From assembly GCF_009193215.1 (NCBI RefSeq), contig NZ_VYVA01000007.1:62001-126000 (forward strand): a stretch of DNA of 64,000 nt. The letters are read 5' to 3'. Below, piece after piece: positions 187 through 22,777 of this stretch (position 1 is the first letter of the stretch; every line of letters starts with the position of its first letter). Origin of the DNA: Flavicella marina. GTDB taxonomy: Bacteria; Bacteroidota; Bacteroidia; Flavobacteriales; Flavobacteriaceae. The position numbers were made by a program, and so were the translations under genes. Below the pieces are notes generated by a model, which saw only the letters and a list, made by a program, of their open reading frames with translations, ran no database searches and was not told the origin of the DNA.

Positions 187-218
187 TGAAACTTTCAGAA
201 ACCTTAAAAATCAAAAAA

Positions 219-1943: not shown

Positions 1944-1960
1944 AATAAAAAGACAACAAA

Positions 1961-2002
1961 AAAACCTAGAATTTCAACTTTAAAACTGAAGTTCTAGGTT
2001 TT
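1961..2002 (+). terminator. Rho-independent terminator after susCD
   Basis: The arms at 1961-1976 and 1987-2002 pair over 16 positions with one mismatch or wobble around a 10-base loop. The left arm starts AAAACCTAGAA and the right arm ends TTCTAGGTTTT, so the stem itself supplies the T-tract. It lies between susD and the first sulfatase gene. Confidence 0.75.
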
Positions 2003-2023
2003 CTCTATTCAAATGATACAATC

Positions 2024-3433: not shown

Positions 3434-3439
3434 GCCGAT

Positions 3440-4108
3440 ATGAAAATCTCAAGCATTTATTCCATACTTCTATTACTGGTTGCATGTAACCTTGATTCTA
3501 ATAAGGATACAGTAGCCTTTACACAAAAAAACTGGGTAATAGAACAACAAGAAGGAGGTACTGTTTTTCTAAACAATACAAATATGGAAATCATAGATGC
3601 AAAAGGATGCACGATATGGTATCGAAATAAAATCAAAGAACCTCTGCAGATTGATTATATCGTTGAAGTAATAGATCAAGGTGGTCCGCACGATCGCGTT
3701 TCCGACTTAAATTGTTTTTGGATGGCAAATGATCCAAATGAACCAAATAACTTTTTTATAAACTCTGAATCAAGAAAAGGAAAATTCAATAATTATCATA
3801 GTCTTACACAATACTACGTTGGCTTCGGAGGTCATAATAACACAAAAACCAGATTTAGAAGGTACAATGGCGAACAGAACAGGCCACTACTACCTGAACA
3901 TGATTTAAGTGGTGATAACTATAAAATATTTGCGAATAAAGACATTCACATAACAATAACCGTTGAAAACAACACCACTGTATATAAAAAAGATGGTGAA
4001 ATAATATTTAAATATCAAGACAATGCTCCATATCGTACTGGATATTTCGGATTTCGAACAGTTAACAATCATATGGTTATAAAATCATTTAAAATCATCA
4101 ATTTATAG
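3440..4108 (+). CDS. DUF6250-like beta-sandwich lipoprotein of the PUL
   Basis: This 222-aa protein has a lipobox (LLLLVAC, Cys16), so it is membrane-anchored and possibly surface-exposed. The rest reads as one all-beta domain of the concanavalin-like (laminin-G) type, with alternating strands, DLNCFWMANDPNEP, YYVGFGGHNNTKTRFRRYNG and a closing GYFGFRTVNNHMVIKSFKI. The last motif, GYFGFRT...M.I..F.I, is the usual end of DUF6250 and 3-keto-disaccharide-hydrolase-like sandwich domains. It sits 6 bases after the sulfatase gene and is surely co-transcribed with it. Glycan binding or hydrolysis of a PUL oligosaccharide are both possible. I assign the fold with moderate confidence and leave the activity open. 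Confidence 0.7.
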   Translation: MKISSIYSILLLLVACNLDSNKDTVAFTQKNWVIEQQEGGTVFLNNTNMEIIDAKGCTIWYRNKIKEPLQIDYIVEVIDQGGPHDRVSDLNCFWMANDPNEPNNFFINSESRKGKFNNYHSLTQYYVGFGGHNNTKTRFRRYNGEQNRPLLPEHDLSGDNYKIFANKDIHITITVENNTTVYKKDGEIIFKYQDNAPYRTGYFGFRTVNNHMVIKSFKIINL

Positions 4109-4121: not shown

Positions 4122-4182
4122 CCCCCTATGTTTATTGGGTTTCACACGATATCCCCCCTCTTGTTGAACACTAAATCCCCCT
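4122..4182 (+). promoter_or_regulatory. C-rich direct-repeat element upstream of the GH88 gene
   Basis: CCCCCT occurs at 4122-4127, 4153-4159 (with an extra C) and 4177-4182. The last two are exactly 23 bp apart, and the final T lies 70 bp before the GH88 ATG. The same 23-bp pitch and similar distance recur before three other genes of this PUL. Unlike the others, no convincing TAnnTTTG box lies 22 bp downstream here. The regulator is unknown; an AraC-type or hybrid two-component activator is an inference. Confidence 0.55.
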
Positions 4183-4251
4183 AAATCACCTTAAGTATTT
4201 AAGAACTTGCAATCAGATAACAAAACAAAAATATCACACAATCAATACTAT

Positions 4252-5451
4252 ATGAAATATCTAAAATTATCTTTATTGCTAGTCATACCAATTATTATCG
4301 CATCTTGTATGGCGACTTCAAAGCAAAGTGAGGCACCACAGATTGAAGCACAAATAGAATTTGCCAACAAGCAATTGTCATTATTATTGAAAGTTGCCGA
4401 AGAAGAAAACAACATTCCAAGAACTTTAGACGCCGAAGGAAATATGCATTGGATCCATGAAAACTTTGATTGGACGGAAGGATTTTACCCTGGAACTAAT
4501 TGGTATTTATATGAGTTGACAAAAGATGAAAAATGGAAAATTGCTGCTGAGCAATTCCAAGCAATTTTTGAGAGTCATAAGAATTATACGACAAATCACG
4601 ACCTTGGTTTCGTGTTTAATTGTTCCTATGGAAATGGGTACCGTCTAACTGGTAATGAAGAGTTTAAAAATGTATTGATAACCGCTGGAAATTCTCTTAT
4701 TACACGTTTTGATCCTAAAGTAGGTTGTATCAAAAGTTGGGATGTTGAAAAAGGTTGGCAATCTACCAGAGGGTGGAAATTCCCTGTGATTATCGATAAT
4801 ATGATGAATTTGGAATTGCTTTTTGAATTGTCAAAACTCACTGGGGATTCTAAATACGAACAAGTTGCAATTTCACACGCAGATACCACATTAAAAAATC
4901 ATTTTAGAAACGACAACAGTTCATACCATGTAATCGATTACGATCCTGAAACTGGTGGCGTAAGAAATCGACATACTGCTCAAGGGTATGCACATGAAAG
5001 TTCATGGGCAAGAGGTCAGGCTTGGGGAATATATGGATATACTGTTTGCTATAGATATACTAAAAACCCTATCTACTTAAAACAAGCAGAAAAAATTGCA
5101 GATTTCATTATCAACTACCCTGGAACGCCAGAAGATGGAATTCCATATTGGGACTATAACGCTCCAAATATCCCTAACGAACCAAGAGATGTTTCAGCAG
5201 CTGCAGTGACAGTTTCTGCTCTAATTGAACTTCAAGCTTATTCAAAAGAATCATATCTTCCGGCAATAAATAAAATTATGAATTCACTGGCAAGTCCAGA
5301 ATACACAGCAAAACTTGGTGAAAACAAAAATTTTCTATTGAAGCATTCAGTAGGAAGTATCCCTCACAACAATGAGATTGACGTACCATTAAATTATGCC
5401 GATTATTATTATTTAGAAGCCCTAGGCAGATACAAAAAATTATCAAAATAA
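4252..5451 (+). CDS. GH88 unsaturated glucuronyl hydrolase, lipoprotein
   Basis: The 399-aa enzyme removes the 4,5-unsaturated uronic acid that lyases leave at the non-reducing end of oligosaccharides. The start at ATG 4252 gives a lipoprotein signal ending IIIASC; a TTG-initiated extension to 4207 was rejected. The (alpha/alpha)6-barrel motifs are clear: NWTEGFYPG-like W.EGFYPG, TNHDLGF with Asp117, VIIDNMMNLELL with Asp182, and HESSWARGQAWGIYG. Asp117 and Asp182 match the two catalytic aspartates (Asp88 and Asp149) of the characterised Bacillus enzyme. GH88 members act mainly on unsaturated chondroitin, hyaluronan or heparin disaccharides, which fits the two PL8 lyases downstream. It begins a run of genes reaching 7627 and has its own C-rich promoter element. 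Confidence 0.93.
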   Translation: MKYLKLSLLLVIPIIIASCMATSKQSEAPQIEAQIEFANKQLSLLLKVAEEENNIPRTLDAEGNMHWIHENFDWTEGFYPGTNWYLYELTKDEKWKIAAEQFQAIFESHKNYTTNHDLGFVFNCSYGNGYRLTGNEEFKNVLITAGNSLITRFDPKVGCIKSWDVEKGWQSTRGWKFPVIIDNMMNLELLFELSKLTGDSKYEQVAISHADTTLKNHFRNDNSSYHVIDYDPETGGVRNRHTAQGYAHESSWARGQAWGIYGYTVCYRYTKNPIYLKQAEKIADFIINYPGTPEDGIPYWDYNAPNIPNEPRDVSAAAVTVSALIELQAYSKESYLPAINKIMNSLASPEYTAKLGENKNFLLKHSVGSIPHNNEIDVPLNYADYYYLEALGRYKKLSK

Positions 5452-5456
5452 AACTC

Positions 5457-7013
5457 ATGACTATAAAAAACATCTATATCTTAGTTCTTGCATTTTTAAG
5501 TTCGACCGCACATTATTCTCAAACATCAGAAACTTGGGAAAATTATGTTCAAGCAAAAAAAAAGGGAAAAGAGCCCATACTACCTGATTTTTCTTACGCT
5601 GGTTACAAATACAGTGAAGAACAAATACCTAATGTGAATTTTAAAATTTTTGATGTTACAGAATATGGAGCAATACCTTCTGATTCAAAATCAGATAAAA
5701 ATGCCATCAAGAAAGCAATCGCCGCAGCAATAAAAAACAAGGAAGGAATCATATTTTTCCCTAAAGGTACTTATCATGTCAATACAGATAAAGATGATAG
5801 CAGCCCAATCATTATAAACTCATCAAATATAGTCTTTAGAGGTGAAGGCGAAGGAGAAAATGGTTCAATACTCCATTTCATGAATGATTTGCCCCCAGCA
5901 GATCCTAAAAAACTGTACAGTTGTCCCGCTGCAATTCAGACGAGTGCAGGTGGTTCTGATAAGTTTTTAACCAACGTAACTTCAAATGCAACTAGAGAAA
6001 CGTTTGAAATAAAAGTACAAGATGCTTCAAAACTAAAAAAAGGAGATTGGGTAATTCTAAAACTGATAAACAATGATAAAAAGTTGGTTCAAGAAGATAT
6101 CTCACCCCTGGAACTTGAAGATGATTGGAAAAAAATAATCAACACAGGTGTTCAAGTTAATGAACGACATCAAATTGCCTCTATTAAAGGAAAAACCGTT
6201 GTTTTCTGTGAACCTATTCACTACAACGTTCGAAAAAAACATGGATGGAAATTGTATAGCTTTGCACATTCTGAAGGACTAGGTTTTGAAAACCTTAGAT
6301 TCGAAGGAAATTGGAAGAAAGAATTTGTACATCATAGATCAGCTGAAGATGACAGCGGATGGGGCATTTTAAAAGTGTCGCGTGCAGTAAACTCTTGGGT
6401 TAGAAATTGTACATTTAAAAACGTTACGAATCCTTTAGGCTTTTCACAGGCGGCTTACAGTACAGCTATCGATATTACTATTGAAGGAAATATAGGTCAC
6501 AGTTCTGTTCATGCAGGAGGAGGATCAACAGGAATATTAATTGCAAATGTGAATGATTTGGTTGGTATGCATCATGCAGTTGGCGTTGGTGGAGGAAGCA
6601 CCTCGGCAACCGTTATCTGGAGAAGTAAATATCCTTCTCACACATCTTTTGAATCACATGCATCACAACCTAGATGCACTTTGTTCGACAACATTGAAGG
6701 TGGTTTTTTTACAGGTAGAGCTGGAGGTGCACGTCAGAGTCTTCCAAATCATAGTAAATACTTAGTATTATGGAATTATAAACAGACTAGTGCGGCTATC
6801 AAAGATTTTAGATTTGTCGCAACTGATTCTTGGTACTGGAGAATCGTACCCCCTATCATTGTGGGTTTCCACGGAGCAGAGACTACTTTCAAAAATGATG
6901 AAGTTCAAATCGCTGAAAGTATCGGGACTCCTGTACAACCTGAATCATTATTTGAAGAACAATTAAAATTAAGATTGGGAGAATTACCCAATTGGATACT
7001 TACATATAAATAA
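5457..7013 (+). CDS. Secreted right-handed beta-helix protein, putative polysaccharide lyase (DUF4955-like)
   Basis: This 518-aa protein has a Sec signal ending near AHYSQ. It opens with an N-terminal LPDFSYAGYKY segment, followed by a pectate-lyase-3 type start (FDVTEYGAIPSDSKSD, then IIFFPKGTYHV). The middle is a long beta-helix with ladder-like repeats, and the C-terminal part resembles DUF4955 (residues about 370-518). It is a paralogue of the protein at 9268-10941, sharing the LPD(F/Y)SYAGY(K/E)Y start and the SGWGI / YGWGA block. Its place between GH88 and a carbohydrate-binding protein makes lyase activity on the same glycan likely, since several glycosaminoglycan lyase families use this fold. 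No catalytic residues can be pointed out with confidence. It starts 5 bases after the GH88 stop. Confidence 0.8.
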   Translation: MTIKNIYILVLAFLSSTAHYSQTSETWENYVQAKKKGKEPILPDFSYAGYKYSEEQIPNVNFKIFDVTEYGAIPSDSKSDKNAIKKAIAAAIKNKEGIIFFPKGTYHVNTDKDDSSPIIINSSNIVFRGEGEGENGSILHFMNDLPPADPKKLYSCPAAIQTSAGGSDKFLTNVTSNATRETFEIKVQDASKLKKGDWVILKLINNDKKLVQEDISPLELEDDWKKIINTGVQVNERHQIASIKGKTVVFCEPIHYNVRKKHGWKLYSFAHSEGLGFENLRFEGNWKKEFVHHRSAEDDSGWGILKVSRAVNSWVRNCTFKNVTNPLGFSQAAYSTAIDITIEGNIGHSSVHAGGGSTGILIANVNDLVGMHHAVGVGGGSTSATVIWRSKYPSHTSFESHASQPRCTLFDNIEGGFFTGRAGGARQSLPNHSKYLVLWNYKQTSAAIKDFRFVATDSWYWRIVPPIIVGFHGAETTFKNDEVQIAESIGTPVQPESLFEEQLKLRLGELPNWILTYK

Positions 7014-7030
7014 ACTTAAATCTCAATAAA

Positions 7031-7627
7031 ATGAAAAAATTAATCGCATTACTTGTAATAGTTTCTATGACCTACACTGTAGAAGCTCAAACTCAAAAAT
7101 TAAAAGTGGTAGAAGATGCTTTTATTCAAGGTGGAAATACCTCGGACACCGCTTTTGGTGAAAGTTCACCGAAAAATCTACGAATTTTTAAATCCAACTC
7201 AGATACAAAATATTCACGTATTACTTATTTAAAATTCGAAACTCCAAAAAAACTAAAAAGCGTTGATAAAGTTACATTACATATACCGTTAAAAGTTTAT
7301 AAAAATGAAGACCAACCCGATGCCACATTTAATTTAGAAATCTATGCTGTAGAGAATGACAAGTGGAGAGAGTTATCCATAACATGGTCTGATGCATTAG
7401 AGCTGGGAGAACTTGTTGGAAGCATGGAAGTGCCTCAATCTTTAGATGGAAAGAATCAAAAACTAGCAATTGAGTTAGATGCCAAAATCGTAAGCGATTT
7501 ATTCAACGGAAAAAAAGATCGAAAAATCACGCTTGCATTGGTGAACTCTAATTTTAATAAAATAAGTGCAATGGCACCTTCAAAAGAACAATCAACAAAA
7601 GTTGCTTCTTATTTAATTATCGAATAA
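7031..7627 (+). CDS. Stand-alone DNRLRE / CBM96-like carbohydrate-binding protein
   Basis: The 198-aa protein has a Sec signal (MKKLIALLVIVSMTYTVEAQ) and then one domain of about 175 residues. Its pattern is that of the DNRLRE/CBM96 beta-sandwich: VVEDAFIQGGNTSDTAFGES, followed by SRITYLKFET, VTLHIPLKVY and a Trp-containing WRELSITWSDAL. CBM96 modules are usually fused to alginate or other uronate lyases; here the module is free. It sits 17 bases after the beta-helix gene, so it may bind the same acidic polysaccharide and bring the lyase or sulfatase to it. No C-terminal sorting tail or lipobox is present, so it is predicted to be soluble in the periplasm. Confidence 0.78.
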   Translation: MKKLIALLVIVSMTYTVEAQTQKLKVVEDAFIQGGNTSDTAFGESSPKNLRIFKSNSDTKYSRITYLKFETPKKLKSVDKVTLHIPLKVYKNEDQPDATFNLEIYAVENDKWRELSITWSDALELGELVGSMEVPQSLDGKNQKLAIELDAKIVSDLFNGKKDRKITLALVNSNFNKISAMAPSKEQSTKVASYLIIE

Positions 7628-7648
7628 CATAAAATTAAAAAGTTTTTT

Positions 7649-7670
7649 AAGGATGAGTTTACTCATCCTT
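7649..7670 (+). terminator. Hairpin between the CBM gene and the second sulfatase
   Basis: A perfect 9-bp stem (AAGGATGAG / CTCATCCTT) closes a 4-base loop. It is preceded by TTTTTT but followed by ATTAATT rather than a T-run, so it may be a weak terminator or an RNA-processing or stability hairpin inside the operon. Confidence 0.4.
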
Positions 7671-7690
7671 ATTAATTCAACTCAACTCCA

Positions 7691-9256
7691 ATGTATTTAA
7701 AATATTTTTCATTATTTGTCCTCTCAACAATTTGTATATCCTGTAGTTCACAGAAAACAACAAAGAAAGTAGACACAAGTAAAAAACCCAATGTTCTGAT
7801 CATCTTTCCTGATCAATTACGTCGGTACTCAGCCGGATTTTGGTCAGAAGCTCCTTACAATGTACACGTCAAAGGAAAACCTGACCCTGTAGTTACCCCG
7901 AATATCGATGGTTTGGCAAAAAACGGGATTGTTTTTACCAGTGCAATTAGCAATTTCCCCTTATGCAGTCCTTATCGAGGAATGCTAATGTCTGGTCGTT
8001 ACCCTGAGCAAAACGGAATTTGGAACAACTGCAAGGTAGGTAGAAATCATAGTCTGAAAGATGACATCACTACAATTCCTGATTTATTTTTAGCTGCTGG
8101 ATACAATACTTCATATTTTGGAAAATGTCATTGGTTGAAGAATGAACCATTATTTGATAAAAACGGGAATTATGTAGGTACTAAGAAAGCTCCTGGCGGG
8201 CATCATGTCAACAAATATGACACTTATGTACCAAGTGACAAAAGACATGGAATCGAATATTTTTATCAAGCCTTAAAAGACGAACATTTCAATCCGAGAA
8301 TATACTCGAATGACCCTGATGCTATTGAAGGTAAAAAGGATGGAGAGCTCCATCTTCCAAAAATGTTTTCTGCAAAAAACGAAGCTGAAAAAATAATTTC
8401 GTATTTACATAACAAAAAATTCCGAGATCCCAACAAACCATTTTGTATGATTTGGTCGATGAACCCTCCTCACAACCCATGGGATGATGAAAATACTGAT
8501 ATGGAATCGTTACATCAGCACTATGATACCGACAAATTCCCACAAATTGACAAACAATTAGTAGTTAGAAAAAATGCAGATATTGATGTGGCAAACTATG
8601 CAAGACATTATTATGCAAACGTAACTAGTGCTGACAAATATATCGGTCAAGTCTTAACGGAATTGAAAAAAACAGGTCAACTAGACAATACGATTGTCAT
8701 TTTTAGTTCAGACCACGGAGAAATGTTGGGTAGTCATGGTTTGACAGGTAAAAATGTAGTAGAGCTAGAATCTTTGGCTATTCCATTTATCGTGCATTGG
8801 CCCAAAGGAGTTCAAGCAGGAATTTCTGATATCTTGATGAGTGTTCCTGATGTATTACCAACAGTAATGGGCTTAGCGGGTCTTGAAAAAGAAATACCAA
8901 AAGACATCGAAGGTACCAACTATGCACCTTTATTGACAGAGCCTTTAAAAACAGATTTAAAAAAACCAGAGGCTGCATTAATCATGCTCGGTAATTCACG
9001 AGGTGTTCAAACGGATAGATACACTTTCTGTGTTCAAGAAAATAAAAGACCTTGGCATAAGAAAAAAGCAACTTCAGTGACTGCTGTTTTTTTCTATGAC
9101 AATGAAAAAGATCCATACCAACTCAACCAAATACTACCTGAAGAGCAACCTGAAGTAGCCGAAAAATTACTTCATACTCTTGGAGAGCTATTAAAGAAAA
9201 CTAATGACCCTTGGTACCAAAACAAAACGTATCAAGAAATAATTCCATATAAATAA
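7691..9256 (+). CDS. S1-family sulfatase, lipoprotein (CSPYR type)
   Basis: This 521-aa sulfatase has a lipobox (STICISC, Cys18). The metal-binding start NVLIIFPDQLRRY is followed by CSPYR with the nucleophile Cys92. This meets the minimal C-x-P-x-R code but has Tyr in place of the usual Ser or Ala. GKCHW (residues about 144-148) replaces the common GKWH, and FSSDHGEMLGSHG is the conserved metal-binding and active-site block. The C-terminus holds FYDNEKDPYQLNQ. It differs strongly from the sulfatase at 2024, so the two probably remove sulfate from different positions. It is followed 11 bases later by a second beta-helix gene, forming a two-gene unit. Confidence 0.92.
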   Translation: MYLKYFSLFVLSTICISCSSQKTTKKVDTSKKPNVLIIFPDQLRRYSAGFWSEAPYNVHVKGKPDPVVTPNIDGLAKNGIVFTSAISNFPLCSPYRGMLMSGRYPEQNGIWNNCKVGRNHSLKDDITTIPDLFLAAGYNTSYFGKCHWLKNEPLFDKNGNYVGTKKAPGGHHVNKYDTYVPSDKRHGIEYFYQALKDEHFNPRIYSNDPDAIEGKKDGELHLPKMFSAKNEAEKIISYLHNKKFRDPNKPFCMIWSMNPPHNPWDDENTDMESLHQHYDTDKFPQIDKQLVVRKNADIDVANYARHYYANVTSADKYIGQVLTELKKTGQLDNTIVIFSSDHGEMLGSHGLTGKNVVELESLAIPFIVHWPKGVQAGISDILMSVPDVLPTVMGLAGLEKEIPKDIEGTNYAPLLTEPLKTDLKKPEAALIMLGNSRGVQTDRYTFCVQENKRPWHKKKATSVTAVFFYDNEKDPYQLNQILPEEQPEVAEKLLHTLGELLKKTNDPWYQNKTYQEIIPYK

Positions 9257-9267
9257 TAATTATTCAA

Positions 9268-10941
9268 ATGAAAATCTGGGTCATTTCTATCTTAAGTTTG
9301 TTTCTATTTAGTTGTAAAGAATTTACAAGTGATAGTTTTGAACCCAGAATTTTAAAAAACTTCAAGAAAAATAAGGTTGATTCTAATCTACCAGACTACT
9401 CATATGCTGGTTACGAGTATGGTGAAAAAAGTATTTCAAACAAAAACGACCTCCATTCTTTCAATGTACTAGACTTTGGAGCCACTCCAAACGACTCTAT
9501 AGATGACACAGATGCAATTAATAAAACCATTGAAGCAGCCGGTAAGAATCATGGAGGCATTGTTATGTTTCCAAGGGGAACATTTTTAGTAAATTCATTA
9601 CCATCAAAAACGAACATCGTTAGAATCAATCACAGTAATATAATTTTAAGAGGGTCTGGTTCGGAAAACGACGGCACGATAATATTCAGTGGTTCTTCAA
9701 CAAACCAAAATGAAAACGATAGTCCTTGGTTATCTCCTTTTGTTTTTCATAGCGGACTAAATCTGCATGACACTCATAGTTTTTTTCATGTTGATTCAAT
9801 CCCTCCTACCTCCTCTATATCAAAAAGTGTTTCAAAAAACGAGACAATCATACACATAATTTCTACCGAAAAAATACGCAAGGGTGATTATATTATGATT
9901 TCTCTTCAAAACACAGATCAAAAAGGAAACCTAATTCATGAACTGATGCACCCCTTGGTTTTTGAAAAGTTTCAAAAAAGTTATGTCGATGCCGGCAAAC
10001 AAAAAGCAAGATCATTTCAGTGGTTGGTGGAAGTCGACAGTATTCTTGATTCAAAAACGATAAAAATCGCGCAACCCACGAGAAGAAAAATTGATCAAAA
10101 ATTCAATCCAATAATTACCATAATACCCATGTTAAAAAATATTGGTGTCGAACATTTTTATTTCAAATCTGCTTGGGATGGAAATTACAAACATCACGGA
10201 AATAGAGAAATGGATTATGGTTGGGGAGCAATCAATTTACACAGAGTTGCAAACGGTTGGATTAAAGACATTCATATTGATAACTACACTCAGACCACAC
10301 AACTCGTAAATAGTAAAAATATCACGATAGAAGATATTCTTATTACGGGTAAATCAGGACATTATGCACCTAAAATGTATCACTCTTCTGACAACCTAGT
10401 GCAAGATATTGACGTTCAAAGTAAAATGACGCATGGTCCTAGTTTAGAAGGTTGCTCTTTTGGAAATGTTTTTAGAAATATAAAATTCAAACATCCATCT
10501 ACTATCGATCTTCATGGAATTGGGAACCCTGGATTTTGTCCACCTATGTACAACTTGTTCGAAAATATTTCCAACATTGAAAAAATTGCAGGCGGAGGGG
10601 CTCCACAAAACTTACCTCATTCTGGAGAATATAATACATTTTGGGATATAGAAATTGAAGGGTGGAGAGATGGTGAGTTTAACGAACTGTTTTATTCTTG
10701 GATATGGAGAGATCCTAAACGCTTTAAAAACAAACTTCATATAGATTGTCACAAACAATACCTACGCAGCAATGTAGTTGCACTACGATCAAAAACACCT
10801 CATAAAAAACTTAGTATTGAACACCAATTTCAAGATAGAAATGACCCATACATTTACGTAGAAGGTTTAAATACTACTAAAAAAACTGTTCCATTATACA
10901 GTACGCAATTAGCGCTAAGACTAGATAATCAGAAGCATTGA
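9268..10941 (+). CDS. Beta-helix lipoprotein, putative polysaccharide lyase (DUF4955-like paralogue)
   Basis: The 557-aa protein has a lipobox (LFLFSC, Cys16) and the same architecture as the protein at 5457-7013: an LPDYSYAGYEYGEKS segment, a pectate-lyase-3-like start (FNVLDFGATPNDSIDD, VMFPRGTFLV), a beta-helix, and a DUF4955-like end. Shared blocks include YGWGAINLHRVANGW and GGGAPQNLPHSGEYNTFW, matching GGARQSLPNHSKYLVLW in the paralogue. Membrane anchoring here versus soluble secretion there suggests different locations for a related activity. It shares a unit with the CSPYR sulfatase. A lyase or a structurally related epimerase or hydrolase are the options; lyase is favoured by the GH88 and PL8 context. 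Confidence 0.78.
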   Translation: MKIWVISILSLFLFSCKEFTSDSFEPRILKNFKKNKVDSNLPDYSYAGYEYGEKSISNKNDLHSFNVLDFGATPNDSIDDTDAINKTIEAAGKNHGGIVMFPRGTFLVNSLPSKTNIVRINHSNIILRGSGSENDGTIIFSGSSTNQNENDSPWLSPFVFHSGLNLHDTHSFFHVDSIPPTSSISKSVSKNETIIHIISTEKIRKGDYIMISLQNTDQKGNLIHELMHPLVFEKFQKSYVDAGKQKARSFQWLVEVDSILDSKTIKIAQPTRRKIDQKFNPIITIIPMLKNIGVEHFYFKSAWDGNYKHHGNREMDYGWGAINLHRVANGWIKDIHIDNYTQTTQLVNSKNITIEDILITGKSGHYAPKMYHSSDNLVQDIDVQSKMTHGPSLEGCSFGNVFRNIKFKHPSTIDLHGIGNPGFCPPMYNLFENISNIEKIAGGGAPQNLPHSGEYNTFWDIEIEGWRDGEFNELFYSWIWRDPKRFKNKLHIDCHKQYLRSNVVALRSKTPHKKLSIEHQFQDRNDPYIYVEGLNTTKKTVPLYSTQLALRLDNQKH

Positions 10942-10950
10942 GCATTTTTA

Positions 10951-11006
10951 CCCTCTTCTTAAGCCAACCAGCCCCCTCTCAATTTCTTTTGTTATTTTTA
11001 ATTTTA
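10951..11006 (+). promoter_or_regulatory. C-rich 23-bp direct repeat plus -7 box upstream of the T9SS-tailed PL8 lyase
   Basis: ACCCT ends at 10954 and CCCCCT ends at 10977, so the T residues are 23 bp apart. A TAATTTTA box lies at 10999-11006, beginning 22 bp after the second T, and the ATG is at 11043. The second repeat occupies the place where the Bacteroidota -33 element is expected, as in activator-dependent promoters. Confidence 0.6.
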
Positions 11007-11042
11007 TGGATTCAACCAAAATCCAACTAATTAAAAAATCAA

Positions 11043-14000
11043 ATGAAAAAAATTAACATTAAACATTCTAAAAATATACTCCTCTATATAGTATTTGTAT
11101 TATGCAGTATAGATATTCAATCTCAAGACCAATCTTTTGAAACCAACAGTGTTCCAAGTAACTGGTCAGCATCTTTAGGTACATTGAGTATTTCAGATAA
11201 ACATACCAAACTTGGTGACAAGTCTTTGAAGTGGAATTGGAGTGCAAACGATGTTCTAACCGTTTCCGACCTAAACCTAAACGGTTTGATCAAAGATGAG
11301 GTTCAAGATTACTACAAAAACATGTTTAGAATGTGGATTTACTCAGAACAAGCCATTTCCGGTGATTCCTTTCAAATCGAATTTAAAGACAACAACAATG
11401 CTACGCAATTTTATTATGATTTCTTTATAAACTATACTGGCTGGAGAGCTGCTTCTGCTAGTTATAGATACGAAATGTCAGGTTTGAAATCAAATGATGA
11501 CCTAAGAACTCTAATAATAAAAGCTCCTTCAACAGGAAGTGGCACCATGTATTTTGACTATATCGATTATACTATGGATAGAAATACTTCACGTGCACCA
11601 GATTATCAACTTACCTTTATCAATGCAAACAACAATGAACATTGGGGAGATTTAGTTTATTTTCAATCTTTACCCAAAACTGTTGCTATTGATAACTCAC
11701 CTTCTAATCAAGAATTAACAGATCTTGCCAAAGTAAAACAAGAATACGATTCTTTTATATTGAGTTCGAAACCCGGTGCTTCCGTTTTAAATAAGGCTAT
11801 TACAGCATATCAAGACCAGGAGATTGAATATGAAAACGGAATTATCTCTGGTCTCCCATTGTATGGAACAGATTACTCCGACAGTCAATCAATAGCCGCA
11901 GTAGATGACTTCATCCATATATTTGCAAGAGAGTACAAGCATAACAACAGTAATACGGCCTGTCTAAACTATTTTCTTAACTCTGTCCGATATCTTCTTG
12001 ATCAAGGGTATGCAGATGGAAGTTTGGTAGAAACTATTCATCACATTGGGTATAGATTTAGAAACGTTGCCAAAGCCATTCATTTAATGAAGAATGAATT
12101 AGAAAACGCTGGCTTATGGGATCAAGCTCAAAAAATGGTAGAATGGTATGCTGCTATTGATATCATCTGGCATCCAACTGCACATGACAGCAACATGGAC
12201 GATGCACTTACAAGGTCACTTCCATTACTTGGCGCTTGCTTATACAAATCAACTCAACCAGAGCAAATCCAATATTTGAAAGGTTTTAGAAATTATGCGC
12301 AAACATGGTTGACCACCTATGCGAAAGAAAGAAATGGGGTGAAGGTTGATTATACAGGATTCCATCATCATGTTTATTACCCTCAATATGCATTCGGATC
12401 ATACAAAAGTCTAGCGCAAGCTGTAAACTACATATCTAGTAGTAGTTTCGGTATTTCTAGCGAAAAAAGGAATGTTTTTAAAAATATACTCTCAGTTGCT
12501 AGGGTTGTTATGTCTGATGACAATTTTAATAATTCTTTATCAGGTAGGTCTCCTTTAACCCCAATTTCAATTTCTAGTGCTTATAAAAACCTTGGCCTCA
12601 TTGCACCTGTTGACGAACAATTAATCGGAGCCTACAATTATATCGAAGGGGCTGATGGTGAAACGAACTCGTATCCTGCAGAAACCCCTCCAAATGGTTT
12701 TTGGCAAATCAATTTTTCAAATTTAGGCGTGTACCGTCAAGGAAATTGGGTGGCAGATATAAAAGGTTTTAACAAATATTTTTGGGGAACTGAGATTTAT
12801 ACTAAAGACAATCGATATGGAAGATATCAAAGTTACGGAGCAGTAGAAATCTTGTACCCTGGTGGACATGAAAATTCTGGCTTTAATATCAATGGTTGGA
12901 ACTGGAATATGCCTCCTGGAACTACAAGTATCCATTTGCCTTTTGAAGATTTAAAAGCTGCAATTAATAGACAAGATGAAAAAACCAACTCAAATTTTGC
13001 AGCTAGTTTAAGGTATGGAACTAAAGGTAGTTATTATGTTGATAGTAAATTAGAAGGAACTATCGGAATCTTTGGGATGGATTTTACTCAAAAAGACATT
13101 TTATCTGGGGAAGAAGGAGTTACATCAAGTTACAACCCAACATTTACATTTAAAAAATCAATGTTTTGTTTTGATGGAAAAATTATTTGTCTAGGGTCCA
13201 ATATTAATAACAATGACAACACCAACCTAACAGCAACGAACTTATTTCAAAATAAATTAAACAGTAAATCTACCCCTATTACTATCAATAATAGTAGTAC
13301 AACTACTTTTCCTTATACACCATCTCCATTATCTTCTTCGAACAATCATTGGATACTTGATGCTTACAATACGGGTTATTACATCAAAAGTGGCTCAGAG
13401 ATTGTTGTTACTAGAAAAAACCAAACATCACCTCACGAAAATGGTGTTGATGCTGCCACTACTGGAGATTTTTCCTCAGCGTATATCAATCATAATACAG
13501 CACCAAATAATGAAGCATATGAATATGTGATAATCCCTGGAACAACAGCTACCCAAATGCAAAGTTTATCGAATGACATGGAAAACGAAAACACTGCTTT
13601 TTACCAAGTCATTCAAAAAAATGCAACTGCCCATATTGTCAAATACAACTCGAAACATGGATTTGTATTATTTAACAGTGGATCCTACGGTGCTACTACC
13701 CCAATCAAAAGCAACGATACACCCTGTCTAGTTATTACCGAAACTGCCGGGAACAACTTGAAATTATCAATTATGCAACCCGATTTAAATTTTGCTTCTA
13801 ATTATGGTGCTAGTCAATCAATTACAACCACACTCGTGCTTAATGGAGATTGGTCACTGCAAACATCATCTGGAGGAAATGTTCAAATAACTGCTGGAAC
13901 CAATGAAACAACGCTACAAGTAGATCTCAAGGATGGTCTACCTGTAGATATTGAACTTTTTTCAGGAGTTTATAATCCATTCTACCCTACTTTCTTTTAT

Positions 14001-14885
14001 GAAGATTTTAGATACAATAACGGTACGAGAGGATATGATGTACAAATTGTTAAAAATACAGATGGTCAGTTAGAATCAAACTTGGGAAAAACGATTTCAA
14101 ATATCGTTGACAACACTGATTCTAATGATGAATTTAATGAATCTAGACCCAATGTAAGAATTCCCAACAATACTACAAGAGACCAAAAAGCGATTTCAGT
14201 AGTTGGAGCTACATCTGGACAAAATTATGAATTGGAAGTTTGGATTCCGCTAACTTCAATTGACTTATCTAGCAACAATCCCTATATTGATGATTCAGAC
14301 TCAAAAAAATACATTACATTTTGGACACAATCTAGATATGCCAATGGTGGTACTTCATCATTATCTGCACTTATATCTACTGATTATACAAATGACGTAA
14401 CTACAGCTAATTGGACCGACGTTACTTCTCAACTTGGAAATATTGCCAAAAACGATGATACTAACAACCTAATATATTTGAAATCTATTCTTGATATTAG
14501 TGACATTGATAGTGATAATTTTACGTTGGCATTTAAATACGAAAGTAATAACTCTGCTTATTCTTTAAGTAACAGGAATGGTACATTCTACATTTCAGAT
14601 GTGCATTATTTTACGAGTTCTGAAATCCTAAGTACACAAACTGTAGCTAAAGAGAACCCTTTAATCATTTATCCAAATCCAACCAACTCCAAAATCAATT
14701 TCAAATTAAATATTGAGGCTACAGAAAATATTATGGTTAAATTATATAATAGTTTAGGGCAAGTTGTGCATATACAGAACACGAGAAACCCCATTCCAGT
14801 TTCAGAGTTTAAGAAAGGAGTATATTTTTTAACAATTCAGCTTTCAAATGGATCTATTTTTACTAAGAAAATAATGATTAATTAA
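11043..14885 (+). CDS. PL8 chondroitinase-ABC-type lyase with T9SS C-terminal tail
   Basis: This 1280-aa secreted enzyme has a signal peptide (about residues 1-28) and an N-terminal Lyase_N beta-sandwich (residues 30-180, with TGWRA and MYFDYIDYTMD). The PL8 alpha/alpha toroid and beta-sandwich catalytic region follows, to about residue 980. A C-terminal domain (about 985-1200, ending FTLAFKYE...YISDVHYF) is shared with the next gene product. A T9SS type A sorting domain ends the protein (IIYPNPTNSKINF ... KKGVYFLTIQ). The catalytic set of Proteus chondroitinase ABC I (His501, Tyr508, Arg560, Glu653) aligns to His442, Tyr449, Arg502 and Glu584, so it is expected to be active on glucuronate- or iduronate-containing glycans. 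The tail predicts export through T9SS to the cell surface or medium. Confidence 0.92.
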   Translation: MKKINIKHSKNILLYIVFVLCSIDIQSQDQSFETNSVPSNWSASLGTLSISDKHTKLGDKSLKWNWSANDVLTVSDLNLNGLIKDEVQDYYKNMFRMWIYSEQAISGDSFQIEFKDNNNATQFYYDFFINYTGWRAASASYRYEMSGLKSNDDLRTLIIKAPSTGSGTMYFDYIDYTMDRNTSRAPDYQLTFINANNNEHWGDLVYFQSLPKTVAIDNSPSNQELTDLAKVKQEYDSFILSSKPGASVLNKAITAYQDQEIEYENGIISGLPLYGTDYSDSQSIAAVDDFIHIFAREYKHNNSNTACLNYFLNSVRYLLDQGYADGSLVETIHHIGYRFRNVAKAIHLMKNELENAGLWDQAQKMVEWYAAIDIIWHPTAHDSNMDDALTRSLPLLGACLYKSTQPEQIQYLKGFRNYAQTWLTTYAKERNGVKVDYTGFHHHVYYPQYAFGSYKSLAQAVNYISSSSFGISSEKRNVFKNILSVARVVMSDDNFNNSLSGRSPLTPISISSAYKNLGLIAPVDEQLIGAYNYIEGADGETNSYPAETPPNGFWQINFSNLGVYRQGNWVADIKGFNKYFWGTEIYTKDNRYGRYQSYGAVEILYPGGHENSGFNINGWNWNMPPGTTSIHLPFEDLKAAINRQDEKTNSNFAASLRYGTKGSYYVDSKLEGTIGIFGMDFTQKDILSGEEGVTSSYNPTFTFKKSMFCFDGKIICLGSNINNNDNTNLTATNLFQNKLNSKSTPITINNSSTTTFPYTPSPLSSSNNHWILDAYNTGYYIKSGSEIVVTRKNQTSPHENGVDAATTGDFSSAYINHNTAPNNEAYEYVIIPGTTATQMQSLSNDMENENTAFYQVIQKNATAHIVKYNSKHGFVLFNSGSYGATTPIKSNDTPCLVITETAGNNLKLSIMQPDLNFASNYGASQSITTTLVLNGDWSLQTSSGGNVQITAGTNETTLQVDLKDGLPVDIELFSGVYNPFYPTFFYEDFRYNNGTRGYDVQIVKNTDGQLESNLGKTISNIVDNTDSNDEFNESRPNVRIPNNTTRDQKAISVVGATSGQNYELEVWIPLTSIDLSSNNPYIDDSDSKKYITFWTQSRYANGGTSSLSALISTDYTNDVTTANWTDVTSQLGNIAKNDDTNNLIYLKSILDISDIDSDNFTLAFKYESNNSAYSLSNRNGTFYISDVHYFTSSEILSTQTVAKENPLIIYPNPTNSKINFKLNIEATENIMVKLYNSLGQVVHIQNTRNPIPVSEFKKGVYFLTIQLSNGSIFTKKIMIN

Positions 14886-14892
14886 TCACTTG

Positions 14893-14931
14893 ACAACCTC
14901 ATAGATTTTTGCTAATTTTCTATGAGGTTGT
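14893..14931 (+). terminator. Terminator after the first PL8 gene
   Basis: A 13-bp perfect stem (arms 14893-14905 and 14919-14931, ACAACCTCATAGA and its complement) closes a 13-base loop and is followed by ATTAAAAAA. The rest of the 14886-15168 gap holds the next promoter element and no gene. Confidence 0.65.
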
Positions 14932-15078
14932 ATTAAAAAAATATTATTACACTTTTTAAACAACGCAAATTTTGAATTTACAATTGATGAAACCTGAATA
15001 ACATCCTCTTTTCAATTCAAACAAGAAACAACCACAAAACACTTACAATCAACAAAATAAAAAAACAACGAACATTTC

Positions 15079-15136
15079 ACCCCTCAAAATAGACACGCTA
15101 CCCCCCTACTGAGAATGCAATAACCTAATAATTTTG
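15079..15136 (+). promoter_or_regulatory. C-rich 23-bp direct repeat plus -7 box upstream of the T9SS binding protein
   Basis: ACCCCT (15079-15084) and CCCCCCT (15101-15107) end exactly 23 bp apart. A perfect TAnnTTTG box (TAATTTTG, 15129-15136) begins 22 bp after the second T, and the ATG is at 15169. This is the cleanest of the four copies in the locus. Confidence 0.65.
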
Positions 15137-15168
15137 TACAGACATTAACCATATAAAGCTTATTAATT

Positions 15169-16674
15169 ATGCGAAAAATTACATTATTTAAATTCTTTTT
15201 TATCACAAGCTTCCTGATAAGTTCGACAGTATTCGCTCAGAACGTGATTTATTATCAAGATTTTCAATATTTCACTAACTCTGGATTTAGATCATTTGCT
15301 ACAAGCAATCCTGATGGAGAAACTTTGGAGGCTTCATCTGGAAACGCCCTTGTTACAAGAAAAACTGGATCAGGAGATATTGCACCTGAAACAACTTTAG
15401 GTTATACTCGACCTAGTACAACTATTCCAGATGGAGGAAGCAGAACAACAACAAGTGTTAAAATCGCGGGAAACTATGGTAGTAACAATTTAAATGCAAC
15501 TGTTTGGGTTGTAACAGATGAAGTAGATATTTCGAATTACGAGAATATGACTGTTTCTTTCGCTACTAAAAATGCCTTCAAAGAGGGGACTAGTTCAAAT
15601 ACATTCAAAGTAATGATAGCAAAAAACTACACAGATGGAACTTCACCTGATGATGTATCATTAACTTGGATAGATGTCACATCCGACATTGTAGATTCAA
15701 ACAATGATGGCAAAGTATTTGGAAATGATGGTAGTTTCGCCTACACTTATATTGATCTATCCGATTATATTGATGACGCAGGTTCAGACAAATTTGCACT
15801 TGCTTTTAAATATGAATTCACAGATCCAGGAGATTATGATAGTCCTACACAACCAATAAGAAACGGTGTTTGGTGGGTTTCGGATGTTCGTTATTATTCT
15901 ACCCCTGTCGATGTTGCAATAGGAGCATTCTCAGCATTAAACACAAGTGCAAGCGGACAAACAAATATTTTTAAGGCTCCAACTGCAGCTATTTCAAATG
16001 CTAATTTTTCTAACAGCGGTACTGCTAAATGGGACGCTATTTTTGTAGATGATAACAGTGTTCCTAGATTAGCCGATGGTGTTGAGGCTCCAGTCAACGA
16101 AGGGTATTTATTCGAAGTTGCAGGAGAATACAATCCTATTTTAGTAAGCGAGGTAAGACATAAACTTGCAAATGCAACTTCTTCTAAAGGAGCAACTGGA
16201 GATTCTGAATGGATAGTTCAAGCTAGTAACGACGCAAGTAGTTGGACAACAGTGAGTACAGTAATAACTGTAGGATCTAATTCTGCTGACGAACGTACAA
16301 CAATACTTTCTACTGCTGAAGCATATAGATATTATAGGTTTGTTTTGAATGGACCATGGACACCTAACCAAGCATATACAGCCCTACAACAGTTAGATTT
16401 CACAACTGCAGATGAAACGGCTTCAACAAATAATACTATTGATACTTTCAATTTATCAGTTTACCCGAATCCTTCAAATTCACAAATAAACATCGATGTA
16501 AAAAACAACGATGCGATTACAAGGGTTAATTTGATCGATTTAACAGGTAAAACAGTTTATTCAAATAACTCAACACAAACTATTGATGTCAGTAACTATG
16601 CGAAAGGAATTTATATTTTACAAATTTCAACAAAAATCGGTGAGTCTTCTAGTACCAAAATAGTTGTAAAATAA
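15169..16674 (+). CDS. T9SS-exported two-module putative glycan-binding protein
   Basis: This 501-aa protein has a Sec signal (ending STVFAQ). Residues about 24-245 form a beta-sandwich that resembles the C-terminal region of the preceding PL8 lyase (VIYYQDFQYF ... WIDVTSDI ... FALAFKYEF ... WWVSDVRYYS), of the DUF5017 or choice-of-anchor type. Residues about 250-405 resemble an F5/8-type-C (discoidin) module: VDDNSVPRLADG, EWIVQASNDASSWTTVS, YRYYRFVLNG. The protein ends in a T9SS type A tail (LSVYPNPSNSQINID ... AKGIYILQIST). No catalytic signature is seen. It probably binds the target glycan at the surface and may act with the lyase with which it shares a module. It has its own promoter and terminator. 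Confidence 0.82.
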   Translation: MRKITLFKFFFITSFLISSTVFAQNVIYYQDFQYFTNSGFRSFATSNPDGETLEASSGNALVTRKTGSGDIAPETTLGYTRPSTTIPDGGSRTTTSVKIAGNYGSNNLNATVWVVTDEVDISNYENMTVSFATKNAFKEGTSSNTFKVMIAKNYTDGTSPDDVSLTWIDVTSDIVDSNNDGKVFGNDGSFAYTYIDLSDYIDDAGSDKFALAFKYEFTDPGDYDSPTQPIRNGVWWVSDVRYYSTPVDVAIGAFSALNTSASGQTNIFKAPTAAISNANFSNSGTAKWDAIFVDDNSVPRLADGVEAPVNEGYLFEVAGEYNPILVSEVRHKLANATSSKGATGDSEWIVQASNDASSWTTVSTVITVGSNSADERTTILSTAEAYRYYRFVLNGPWTPNQAYTALQQLDFTTADETASTNNTIDTFNLSVYPNPSNSQINIDVKNNDAITRVNLIDLTGKTVYSNNSTQTIDVSNYAKGIYILQISTKIGESSSTKIVVK

Positions 16675-16691
16675 TAGTCAAATGTTTAAGC

Positions 16692-16724
16692 AAAAAAGCC
16701 TCTATAATTTATAGGGGCTTTTTT
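16692..16724 (+). terminator. Strong intrinsic terminator after the T9SS binding protein gene
   Basis: The stem GCCTCTATA / TATAGGGGC (core 16698-16718, one G-T pair) is extended by A6 on the left and T8 on the right, so it could act in both directions. Confidence 0.85.
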
Positions 16725-16737
16725 TTATGAGTATTCT

Positions 16738-16795
16738 ACCCCTTCTTGAAGAACAATATTCCCCACGGTAAAAATTTTAAACTGTGTTAATTTTA
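16738..16795 (+). promoter_or_regulatory. C-rich direct repeat plus -7 box upstream of the second PL8 lyase
   Basis: ACCCCT ends at 16743. A weaker second repeat, TCCCCAC, occupies 16760-16766, at the 23-bp pitch. TAATTTTA lies at 16788-16795, again 22 bp after the expected second-repeat end, and the ATG is at 16827. The second repeat lacks the final T, so this is the weakest repeat pair, but the spacing is exact. Confidence 0.5.
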
Positions 16796-16826: not shown

Positions 16827-19800
16827 ATGAATCATTCGATATTCCAAATAAATAAATTTCTTTTTGCCTTTGCATTTATTGCACAAACAATTATAGCTCA
16901 GAATTCGTATACACCTGCGATAGAATCTTTTGAATACGACACTTCTTTAGATTATTATTCTAATACAAATGGCTCTACCCTATCTACAAGTAAAGAACAC
17001 CATAAATTTGGAAAACAATCATTAAAATGGTCATGGACCGCTCCAGGAGCAATTTCTACCAAAAATTTCAGAATTTTAAATATAGATGAGAGTCCACTTA
17101 AATACGGAGATCATTTTCCTGCTAGTCCTACCTTGTCATTATCTATATACAACGAGGTTGCTCAAAATGAAAAAATAAAAGTATCCGCAACAAACAATTC
17201 CAAAAAAGAAATTTATTTCGAATTTGAAATAAACTTTACGGGTTGGAGAACCATTTGGGTTCCCTATTATGAAATGCAAGGTGCAGCTCCTGCGAAAGGT
17301 GAAGATTTGCAAATAGATAATTTTTCTATTAGCACTAATGCAACAAACGGAACTCTATATTTTGATGATATAGTTTTCTCTCAATATCAAGATGATCGTC
17401 ATTCATACCCAGATAAAACGGTACCTTTTATAAAATCAGACAAAGAACCAGGTTCCGATCATTGGATGCCTTTGTTAAAATACATAGATTTTATCAACTC
17501 TGTTCAACAATTAGAAATATCAAAACAAAAAATATCTGATTTAAACTCAATTGAAAAAAAATTAGATAATTCTATAGGAACCCATAAAAAAACTCGCGTC
17601 AACATAGGAAAAATCAGAGCTGAATTTGAAAAATTAAAGCTTGTAGATAATGGTAAAACCGTTTTAGGTCCGCCAATGAATTTCAAACAAGAACAAGTAT
17701 ATTATAATAGCAAACAACAAGGAACTATCAAAGGAAATGAAATAAATGATTTAGGTAAATTGATAAAAAACATTGGTAAATGTTATCATTCTGCCTCCAC
17801 AGCAGAAAAAGAAGAACTTAAAGACATGTTTTTAATGGCTACCAATTATTATTTAGATCAAGGTTGGCAAGAAGGAGCTTCTGGAGGAACAAGACATCAT
17901 ATTGGATATAATGTAAGAGAATTGGCAGAAGGTTTCTTTATGTTGCGTAAAACACTGCAAGAGTCAAACCTTTTAAAAGAAGTTGGAGGAAGTCTACAAT
18001 GGCTATTCAATGTTGGTATGGTTTTGGACGATGAAACCAAATTTCACGTAAATCTCGACTATTTAAATACACAAGCCTATTATCATTTACTACTGATATT
18101 TATGGTTGAAGACTTGAACAAACAGGCAACCATACTAAGTGCATATGCAAATTACATAGGTATTACTCTTGGGCAACAAGATCAAGAATGGGGCTTTAAA
18201 ATCGATGGTACTGCTTGGCATCATAACGGTCATTATCCGGCCTACGGAATGGGAGCATTTAGAAATGTACCAAGAATCATTCAAACTTTATCAGGCACCG
18301 AATTTAGAATTTCTGAAAAAGGACATGCGAATTTTAAAAATGCATTTTTAGCGACAAGAACATACAGCCAAAAAATGGATTATGGTTTTGGAAATGCTGG
18401 TAGACATCCTTTAGAAGATAATAGTATCAAATCTCTGAAAACGCCCTATCTACAGATGGCTTATTCTGGAAACCCTGAAGGAACGGAGAAAATCGATAGA
18501 GAAGTTGCCAGTGCTTACCTGAGACTCTGGGGCAGAAGTGATGCTTTAAACCGAAAAACTTTTACAAGTCTAAACAATATACAAGAAGAAAATTTAGATG
18601 GATATAAAACATTTCCATATGCTGCAACAGCCGTCCATAGAAGAAATAATTGGGCAGCCATCATAAAAGGATATAGCAAATATGTTTGGTCGTCAGAGAT
18701 TTATGTTGGTTCGAATCGCTATGGTAGATATCCTGCAAACGGAACCATACAACTTTTGAATGAAAAAGGAGAGGCTGCAAGTGGATTCAAACAAAAAGGT
18801 TGGGACTGGAATAGATATCCTGGTGCAACCATTATTTATCTTCCTTTTGATGAATTAGAGCCTAACACTCCCCTATTAATGTTCCGATCAGCAGAAACAT
18901 TTGCAGGAGCAGTTACTTTAGATGATAATGGTGTTTTCGGTATGGTTTTAAATGAATCAAAAGGATCTAATGCCGATGGAAACGAAGTTAATGTTGGTTT
19001 CCCAGGCAAGCTGAAGGCTAAAAAATCTGTATTTTCTTTTGGTGATAAATTAATTTGTATCGGTACAGGTATCTCGAGCATTGATAATGAAAATCCCACA
19101 CAAACAAACTTGTTTCAAACTTCAATTACGAAAGCTAATCCTCCTACTTATACCAAAAAAGATAAAAGTATCACAAAGTCATCTTACGAAAAAGAGTGTG
19201 GCAATTGGGTAATTGACACCTATGGTAATGGTTATCATATCTTGTCTGACTCCAAAGTAATGACCGCTAGAAAAGAGCAATTTTCATATCATAATAAATA
19301 TTCCGTTAAAACAGGCAAAATGGATCCTAAAGGAAAAGGACAAAAAGAAACAAAAGGAAAATTTGCAACTGCTTGGATAGAACATGGAATGAACCCGAGC
19401 AATGCATCTTATCAATATGTAATCTACCCTTTTCTAAAACAAGAAGAAGTCAAAAATTTTGGAAAAAAAATAAAAAAAGACAATTCATACGATATACTAC
19501 AAGCGGATGATTTTGCACATATTGTGAAAGATAAAGAGACCAATACTGATGCTTATGTCATTTTCAACGCCTCGGAACCTATTAAACATGGTTTAATCAC
19601 AGAAGTTTCTGAACCAGCTTTAATTATGTCTAAACAACTAACCGAGAAATCGTACGAAATTTCAATAGTACAACCAGATTTAAATTTTGAACAAATAAAG
19701 TCCAATCGATATATTAATAACAGTAGATTGGTTAACCTCAAAATTACGTTGAAAGGAATATGGTCGCTTAAGTCGGATCCAGCTGTTAAAAATATTTCTA

Positions 19801-19899: not shown

Positions 19900-19940
19900 A
19901 ATACAATCGATTGTATTCTTGATTTCGTTTACTATATTTA
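19900..19940 (+). promoter_or_regulatory. Perfect 18-bp palindrome overlapping a putative dctPQM promoter
   Basis: AATACAATCGATTGTATT (19900-19917) is a perfect palindrome. TTG at 19911-19913 lies in its right half and is 19 bp before TATATTTA (19933-19940), together resembling the Bacteroidota TTTG-N19-TAnnTTTG promoter. The TTG start of dctP follows at 19964. An operator overlapping a -33 element suggests a dimeric repressor; which one is unknown. The absence of a GC-rich stem and T-run argues against a terminator. Confidence 0.55.
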
Positions 19941-19963
19941 CAAAATATTTAAAACTAAAAACT

Positions 19964-20962: not shown

Positions 20963-20970
20963 AAAACATA

Positions 20971-22727: not shown

Positions 22728-22743
22728 ATTTAACTACAACAAA

Positions 22744-22777
22744 CAAAAAAAGCTTTTCTTAATCGGAAAGCTTTTTT
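22744..22777 (+). terminator. Intrinsic terminator after dctPQM
   Basis: The arms 22744-22757 and 22764-22777 (AAAAAAAGCTTTTC and complement, with one G-T pair) close a 6-base loop, and the right arm ends in T7. It marks the end of the PUL. Confidence 0.85.

Follow-up and report, generated by a model that had tools for sequence, protein, structure and literature searches.

Operators of hybrid two-component systems (HTCSs) have been described in Bacteroides as direct repeats with an average of 21 bp between the two sites (Ravcheev et al. 2013, PMC3878776). According to the portions of that study available to us, the operators of B. thetaiotaomicron and its relatives are located upstream of operons encoding SusC/SusD and enzymes beside the gene of the AraC-type HTCS, and some regulators have distant targets. 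One of these, HTCS_Hya (BT3334), belongs to the chondroitin sulfate/hyaluronan polysaccharide utilization locus (PUL) of B. thetaiotaomicron (PMC3878776 Table 1, PMC12877422). The accessible parts of PMC11253607 report gel shifts in which response-regulator parts of HTCSs were tested on PUL promoters, and further context is found in the accessible parts of PMC12125979 and PMC12877422.

Here, we describe a PUL of the marine flavobacterium Flavicella marina (assembly GCF_009193215.1), inside which a stretch of 64,000 nucleotides of contig NZ_VYVA01000007.1 begins (forward strand, positions 62,001 to 126,000; hereafter "the window"). C-rich repeats in front of four of its genes or operons are the visible C-ends of a longer operator. 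With high confidence, we regard this element as the operator of the HTCS encoded directly upstream of the window (L003:10198-14274).

The upstream regions of orthologous PUL genes were compared between F. marina and its relatives G001, G003 and G005. The conserved element consists of two direct half-sites of about 14 bp, GAACAATTtaCCCC, 22 bp apart, and a -7 box downstream, about 37 bp from the first base of the second half-site (half-site B). Five such promoters exist in the F. marina PUL, the fifth lying outside the window between the HTCS gene and the SusC/SusD operon. All five have a pitch of 22 bp and a distance of 58-59 bp from the start of half-site A to the -7 box, while half-site B starts 37 bp before the box in four and 36 bp before it in the GH88 promoter. 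Eighteen sites in the relatives behave alike, with a pitch of 22 bp (16 sites) or 21 bp (two sites) and a distance from B to the -7 box of 37 bp in 15 cases, the three others being GH88 promoters (36, 38 and 39 bp). Half-site A is conserved as well as half-site B, and most -7 boxes conform to the standard type TAnnTTTG. The operator thus has the form expected for an HTCS, in which two conserved sites are directly repeated at a distance of about two helical turns. Within a half-site, GAACA and the C-run are separated by about 10 bp or one helical turn, which is the spacing expected for the two helix-turn-helix (HTH) units of an AraC-type domain.

The first-pass annotation of the window, made from the sequence alone, had reported pairs of C-rich repeats ending in T, each pair exactly 23 bp apart. 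Measured by the ends of the C-runs, this is correct for three pairs; the fourth (16739/16761) has a pitch of 22 bp, and the T placed at 16766 is a C, the second repeat there reading CCCC (16761-16764) followed by A. As a true period, 23 bp was rejected, as alignment on GAACA gives 22 bp. The -7 boxes were found where they had been placed (TAATTTTA at 10999, TAATTTTG at 15129 and TAATTTTA at 16788), and direct reading likewise gave start codons 61-70 bp past the ends that had been assigned to the second repeats. The box of the GH88 promoter had been named as a weak point, and indeed TAAGAACTTGCA at 4200-4211 stands in place of TAATTTTR. However, the counterpart promoters carry GAACTTGCA (G003 and G005) and GAAATTGCA (G001) at about the same place, so that the deviation is a true variant. 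A third CCCCCT at 4122-4127, 32 bp upstream of the GH88 operator and present in G003 as well, is perhaps an extra half-site.

The element is rare in the genome. CCCC-N17-19-CCCC occurs four times in the window (at three places) against 0.40 expected, and none of 100 shuffles reached four. In the complete assembly (3,155,273 bases, 19 contigs), the composite MCCCY-N17-18-CCCC-N19-24-TANNTTTR is found at only three places, all of them in the window, and its reversed form has no match. The looser CCCCT-N17-18-CCCC has six places, three of which are in the window, and four for the reversed pattern. CCCCCT alone was rejected as a motif, since its ten occurrences in the window against 8.3 expected represent no enrichment. 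A matrix was built from the 18 sites of the relatives, picked by eye from PUL promoters and refined on themselves, which makes their own scores circular. The five F. marina promoters were kept out of the training; the pitch was allowed to vary from 20 to 24 and the distance from the start of half-site B to the -7 box from 34 to 41. These five scored 31.6-39.2, whereas the best other site in 83 kb reached 17.0 and the highest score in 400 shuffles was 18.2. The matrix was remade without G003 because this genome is close to that of F. marina. With the 13 remaining sites from G001 and G005, still in the registers of the 18-site matrix, the five promoters again ranked first on both strands of the 83 kb (25.3-36.9; next site 14.8; reversed decoy 11.5).

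A genome-wide search with a sequence-only profile of the 18 sites, in which 150 of 3861 first-look candidates were scored and E-values are rough, returned the five PUL promoters as best hits (E 2.3e-8, 1.8e-7, 1.6e-6, 2.1e-6 and 2.2e-6). Sixth and seventh came C14:339012 (6.9e-4) and C7:772227 (2.0e-3), and all later hits had E 0.026 or weaker; among these, a weak hit on the minus strand inside the CBM96 gene (E 0.026) was set aside. An equal density of the motif at random genome positions, which according to the first-pass annotation would speak against a regulatory site, was looked for and not found.

The same annotation had suggested that the repeats serve as the activator site of a whole regulon, recognised by a hybrid two-component or AraC-type regulator encoded beyond the window. 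Such a gene is present upstream, with its end at a distance of 4.7 kb from the window and the first operator of the PUL immediately behind it. Its product of 1358 aa unites, in the order given by Pfam, a Reg_prop propeller, Y_Y_Y, HisKA, HATPase_c, Response_reg and an AraC-type HTH_18 domain, and thus a sensor with predicted periplasmic location, histidine kinase, receiver and HTH in one chain. Orthologous PULs adjoin HTCSs of 60% (G005) and 58% (G001) identity; that of G003 was found via the PUL contig, at the end of which the HTCS is cut off (82% identity over 110 residues). In all three relatives the operator is present beside PL8 genes, the kind of conservation that had been suggested as support, and both PL8 and GH88 were confirmed there by Pfam. 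The genus members G002 and G004 lack an HTCS of this kind and have no profile hit below E 0.05. The presence of the operator near orthologous HTCSs and its rarity in the genome support a regulon-wide site, at which the HTCS would act as an activator.

In a survey of 299 genomes of the family, with 16 candidates scored per genome and stricter filters than in the search of the F. marina genome, 13 were positive at E<=1e-3, namely F. marina, G001, G005 and ten genomes of other genera. In eight of the latter ten, a site lies no more than about 10 kb from the gene of a full-length HTCS that is 48-56% identical. Among 20 genomes without a hit (two of the genus and the first-listed 18 of 286 family negatives), only G023 has such an HTCS (49%), which gives a Fisher p of 6e-5 for an identity threshold of 48% that was set after the table had been seen and with the HTCS of G006 (42%) counted as none. 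A scan of the G023 region revealed a site of 33.9 before a 1033-aa open reading frame (ORF) of SusC size. Nine genomes of other genera have the operator close to an HTCS of 48-56% identity. It is additionally present in Wenyingzhuangia sp. 2_MG-2023 (HTCS 55% identical), where one site precedes the gene behind the HTCS gene (31.3) and another precedes GH88 (20.2). The 15 stretches scanned beside orthologues (295 kb) contain 19 sites with a score of at least 20, 14 of them with at least 25, against two and none in the reversed decoy. Counted from the first base of the -7 box, an ATG follows each of the 19 at 29-138 bp; ORFs of at least 120 aa contain none of them. In G249 the site is on the other side of the HTCS, and the stretches L223 and L224 have no site over 13. 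Near other HTCSs the operator is rare: 79 such loci (1.6 Mb, L073 left out) contain two sites that reach 20 and none that reaches 25. Distant HTCSs as carriers of the same site were also considered with a wider gap range at 79 loci and rejected (four sites over 20, best 24.4). Altogether, the operator precedes PUL operons and follows the orthologues of the regulator from genome to genome, with exceptions in both directions, and its register with the -7 box appears to be kept in ten or more genera.

Besides the late choice of the threshold, several observations weigh against this assignment. Half-site B is degenerate, its C-run shifting by a base or two, and the GH88 box departs from TAnnTTTG. 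Two survey positives, G058 and G158, have no close orthologue. The G058 site, before an HlyD-like gene, is probably a chance match; in G158 the genome's own HTCS (30% identical overall) is divergent to the site (L230:9843-9906, minus strand), and a SusC-type receptor gene lies beside it. An extra site in G001 (L232:8374-8439, minus strand; G001:C12:856374) adjoins a paralogue of only 27% identity; therefore, the operator is not exclusive to this orthologue group. Conversely, G217 and G006, whose DNA-binding pieces are 68% and 61% identical (42% for the full protein of G006), have no profile hit at E<=1e-3, and the best sites within 600 bp behind their HTCSs score 12.7 and 4.8. As a separate observation, the extra G001 site precedes a 1316-aa gene with domains of the planctomycete cytochrome type (PSCyt/PSD).

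The geometry could also be read as that of a promoter of an alternative sigma factor of the extracytoplasmic function (ECF) type, with the C-run near the -7 box as its -33 element and the upstream copy as decoration. The fixed distance to the -7 box and the position of the C-run of half-site B at about -33 agree with this. Nevertheless, we consider it very unlikely, given that half-site A is no less conserved, that the -7 boxes are mostly standard, that the Pfam scans, as far as they covered the PUL genes, revealed no sigma factor, and that the occurrence of the operator tracks the HTCS in most genomes checked. Chance C-runs or duplicated promoters of shared ancestry would account for the lack of enrichment of CCCCCT itself, and yet the spacers differ freely while elements and distances stay the same; together with the genome-wide rarity, the presence in other genera and decoys that are empty or nearly so, this leaves such an origin with a negligible probability.

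A third candidate is the LacI-type regulator encoded next to the HTCS gene (L003:9170-10195). A LacI gene precedes the HTCS gene in Wenyingzhuangia as well, and ORFs of the same size, judged by size alone, occupy its place in G001, G003 and G005. LacI operators are palindromes, whereas the C-rich element is arranged as a direct repeat, has the geometry of an AraC-type site and shows no inverted repeat. Moreover, a perfect palindrome, TACAATCGATTGTA, sits where LacI should act. LacI as the binder of the C-rich repeats was accordingly rejected as highly improbable, the regulator having a separate palindrome of its own. This palindrome has three exact sites in the genome, in the lacI/kduI intergenic region (L003:9096-9109), before dctP (19902-19915) and before a distant GH88 gene (L225 1501-1514; C7:1077332). 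Its 12-bp core recurs before dctP in G001 and G003 (DctP confirmed), beside the confirmed LacI gene of Wenyingzhuangia, and in G001, G003 and G005 upstream of the HTCS between divergent ORFs of LacI and KduI size (by size alone). It is thus a putative operator of LacI for kduI, the transporter of the tripartite ATP-independent periplasmic (TRAP) type and the distant GH88. Because of the sites at kduI and dctP and the conservation of the core in relatives, breakdown and import across the outer membrane are probably under the control of the HTCS, and import across the inner membrane and uronate metabolism under that of LacI, as a second regulatory layer. The distant GH88 gene adjoins a porphyranase-like gene.

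For the HTCS as the regulator of the C-rich operators, we infer the following course of events. An oligosaccharide released from a uronate-containing, probably sulfated glycosaminoglycan-like polysaccharide would bind to the periplasmic propeller sensor, and the phosphorelay would free the AraC-type domain. Two HTCS protomers would then be placed side by side on the same face of the DNA, and each would touch both GAACA and the C-run one turn beyond it. The would-be -33 region would be covered by the second of them, which would also bring the sigma factor to the -7 box, located about 37 bp past the start of this protomer's half-site. The outcome would be the joint switching-on of the operator-headed PUL operons and two distant genes. 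The rigid -7 register would offer a concrete picture of how HTCSs may work at promoters without a -33 element.

For the DNA-binding domain, 12 orthologues show 59-82% identity, and the loci ranking next (the best 22 of 90 others) do not exceed 53%. The second recognition helix of this domain reads D-L-K-(Y/H/N)-F-R in the orthologues, while the non-orthologous HTCSs found only through the operator have D-T-K-Y-F-R (G158) and D-V-K-Y-F-R (G001 paralogue). Based on 96 HTCSs read from 111 loci and a site threshold of 15 beside the gene, a site accompanies 15 of the 18 with K and R at the two positions but three of the 78 others; this count is biased, as the F. marina HTCS together with its orthologues makes up 13 of the 18, and L230 and L232 entered the set on account of their sites. 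Among the three remaining, L102 has a site (21.7), in contrast to the two others (0.5 and -5.7). The only criterion for a second set was the similarity of the DNA-binding piece (of its 30 loci, 23 were readable and seven were dropped because no HTCS frame was recognised). Here, five loci other than that of F. marina with KR, QR or KK scored 12.7, 11.1, 4.8, 1.2 and -2.7 against 17 others (one-sided p 0.01), although two loci with a KS helix scored 12.8 and 11.1 and the top scorers may be orthologues. A tendency of the D-x-K-x-F-R helix to accompany the C-run operator is therefore suggestive only. It is conceivable, and we propose it tentatively, that a second helix of the form D-x-K-Y/H-F-R reads the C-run through the guanines of the opposite strand, and that such HTCSs across the Bacteroidota use GAACA-N5-CCCC in a rigid -7 register which replaces the -33 element. 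If true, this would be a readable protein-DNA code predicting PUL regulons from genome sequence alone.

The features of the locus are listed in Table 1. The 19.2 kb to the left of the window encode a DUF4861 protein, an SDR protein, KduI, the divergent LacI, the HTCS, a 512-aa protein without Pfam match and a SusC-type receptor, leading to SusD; SusC and operator of the first operon are thus outside the window. From the HTCS gene to the TRAP genes, the operator is present in all five gaps of more than 100 bp between listed ORFs and in no shorter gap. The start of dctP is uncertain, as its signal peptide reads better from the second of two TTG codons, leaving a gap of 86 bp. As the gap before dctP holds the LacI-type palindrome, the TRAP genes may have a promoter of their own; perhaps they are also served by operator 4. 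The gap 22727-22911 in front of a TonB receptor gene contains no operator, so that the regulon seems to end there.

The two distant sites lie directly before genes for a 1096-aa DUF4955/type IX secretion system (T9SS) protein and a sulfatase (28.9 and 35.2 with the G003-free matrix). Counterparts of this sulfatase with operator exist in G003 (83% identical, on another contig) and in G005 (76%, about 1 Mb from the PUL), scoring 27.9 and 26.9 with the same matrix. With regard to the DUF4955 proteins, a 997-aa DUF4955/T9SS protein with operator is encoded inside the PUL in G005 (L040:5754-8747), the similar 1096-aa protein of F. marina being distant from it (L173:3106-6396). The PUL operons and the distant sulfatase and DUF4955 genes, which could not be linked by neighbourhood alone, are likely the complete regulon. 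Judged by gene content and by the relatives, it likely serves the breakdown of a glycosaminoglycan-like polysaccharide. Elsewhere, the minus strand of the window carries a series of ORFs at 55469-60857, most of which have 215-249 aa and which perhaps form a lineage-specific paralogous cluster; four that were scanned had no Pfam match.

Table 1. Operators, repeats and genes of the F. marina PUL (window coordinates unless a locus is named)
Feature	Coordinates	Strand	Details	Basis
Operator-promoter 1 (GH88 operon)	4144..4210	+	half-sites 4144-4157, 4166-4179; -7-like AGAACTTGC 4202-4210	profile E 2.3e-8
Operator-promoter 2 (PL8 lyase a)	10940..11006	+	half-sites 10940-10953, 10962-10975; -7 TAATTTTA 10999-11006	profile E 2.2e-6
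Operator-promoter 3 (T9SS-tail protein)	15070..15136	+	half-sites 15070-15083, 15092-15105; -7 TAATTTTG 15129-15136	profile E 1.6e-6
Operator-promoter 4 (PL8 lyase b)	16729..16795	+	half-sites 16729-16742, 16751-16764; -7 TAATTTTA 16788-16795	profile E 1.8e-7
Operator 5 (first operon)	L003:14377 = G000:C17:57377		upstream of window, between HTCS gene and 512-aa protein gene; CACC-type half-sites GAACAATTAACACC-N8-GAACATTATACACC, -7 box CAATTTTAC	profile E 2.1e-6
C-repeats before GH88	4154-4159, 4177-4182	+	CCCCCT, CCCCCT	direct reading
C-repeats before PL8 lyase a	10951-10954, 10972-10977	+	CCCT (three Cs only), CCCCCT	direct reading
C-repeats before T9SS-tail protein	15080-15084, 15102-15107	+	CCCCT, CCCCCT	direct reading
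C-repeats before PL8 lyase b	16739-16743, 16761-16764	+	CCCCT, CCCC then A	direct reading
Putative LacI operator before dctP	19902..19915	.	perfect palindrome TACAATCGATTGTA	sequence
End of first operon	186..4108	+	SusD 186-1943, sulfatase 2024-3433, DUF6250 protein 3440-4108	ORFs, Pfam
Operon 2	4252..10941	+	GH88, DUF4955/pectate-lyase-like, CBM96, sulfatase, pectate-lyase-like	inter-ORF gaps 5-63 bp
PL8 lyase a	11043..14885	+	T9SS sorting tail	
T9SS-tail protein	15169..16674	+	T9SS sorting tail (Por_Secre_tail)	
PL8 lyase b	16827..19877	+	second PL8 lyase	
TRAP transporter DctPQM	19919-22727 (listed)		dctP listed from TTG 19919; likelier start TTG 19964	

Activators of the AraC/XylS family bind tandem sites next to the promoter. 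The operator described here resembles these in adjoining the core promoter and in its two directly repeated sites, which are about two turns apart, and a domain with two HTH units fits two boxes about 10 bp apart per half-site; unlike them, the regulator is a membrane-bound hybrid kinase and the promoter is of the Bacteroidota -7 type. The best solved relative of the sensor half is 4a2l, which we take to be BT4663, the heparin HTCS. By gene content, the locus is similar to the HTCS_Hya (BT3334) system as presented in the accessible parts of PMC3878776 and PMC12877422, with an HTCS beside PL8, GH88, sulfatase and SusC/D genes. Within the open-licence literature searched, as far as its texts were accessible, neither this operator nor a constant spacing of an HTCS site from the -7 box was found described. 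Since HTCS direct-repeat operators were described in Bacteroides in 2013, the operator is of a known kind. In common with the operators in the accessible portions of PMC3878776, it has two directly repeated sites about two turns apart, is located before PUL operons with an adjoining HTCS and has distant targets. It differs in belonging to another lineage of the Bacteroidota and in its pitch of 22 bp against an average of 21, the motifs being compared by geometry and not by logo, and in the fixed distance to the -7 box, which those portions do not describe. As far as our searches show, its sequence, the regulon with distant members, the -7 register in ten or more genera and the lead on the recognition helix are new.

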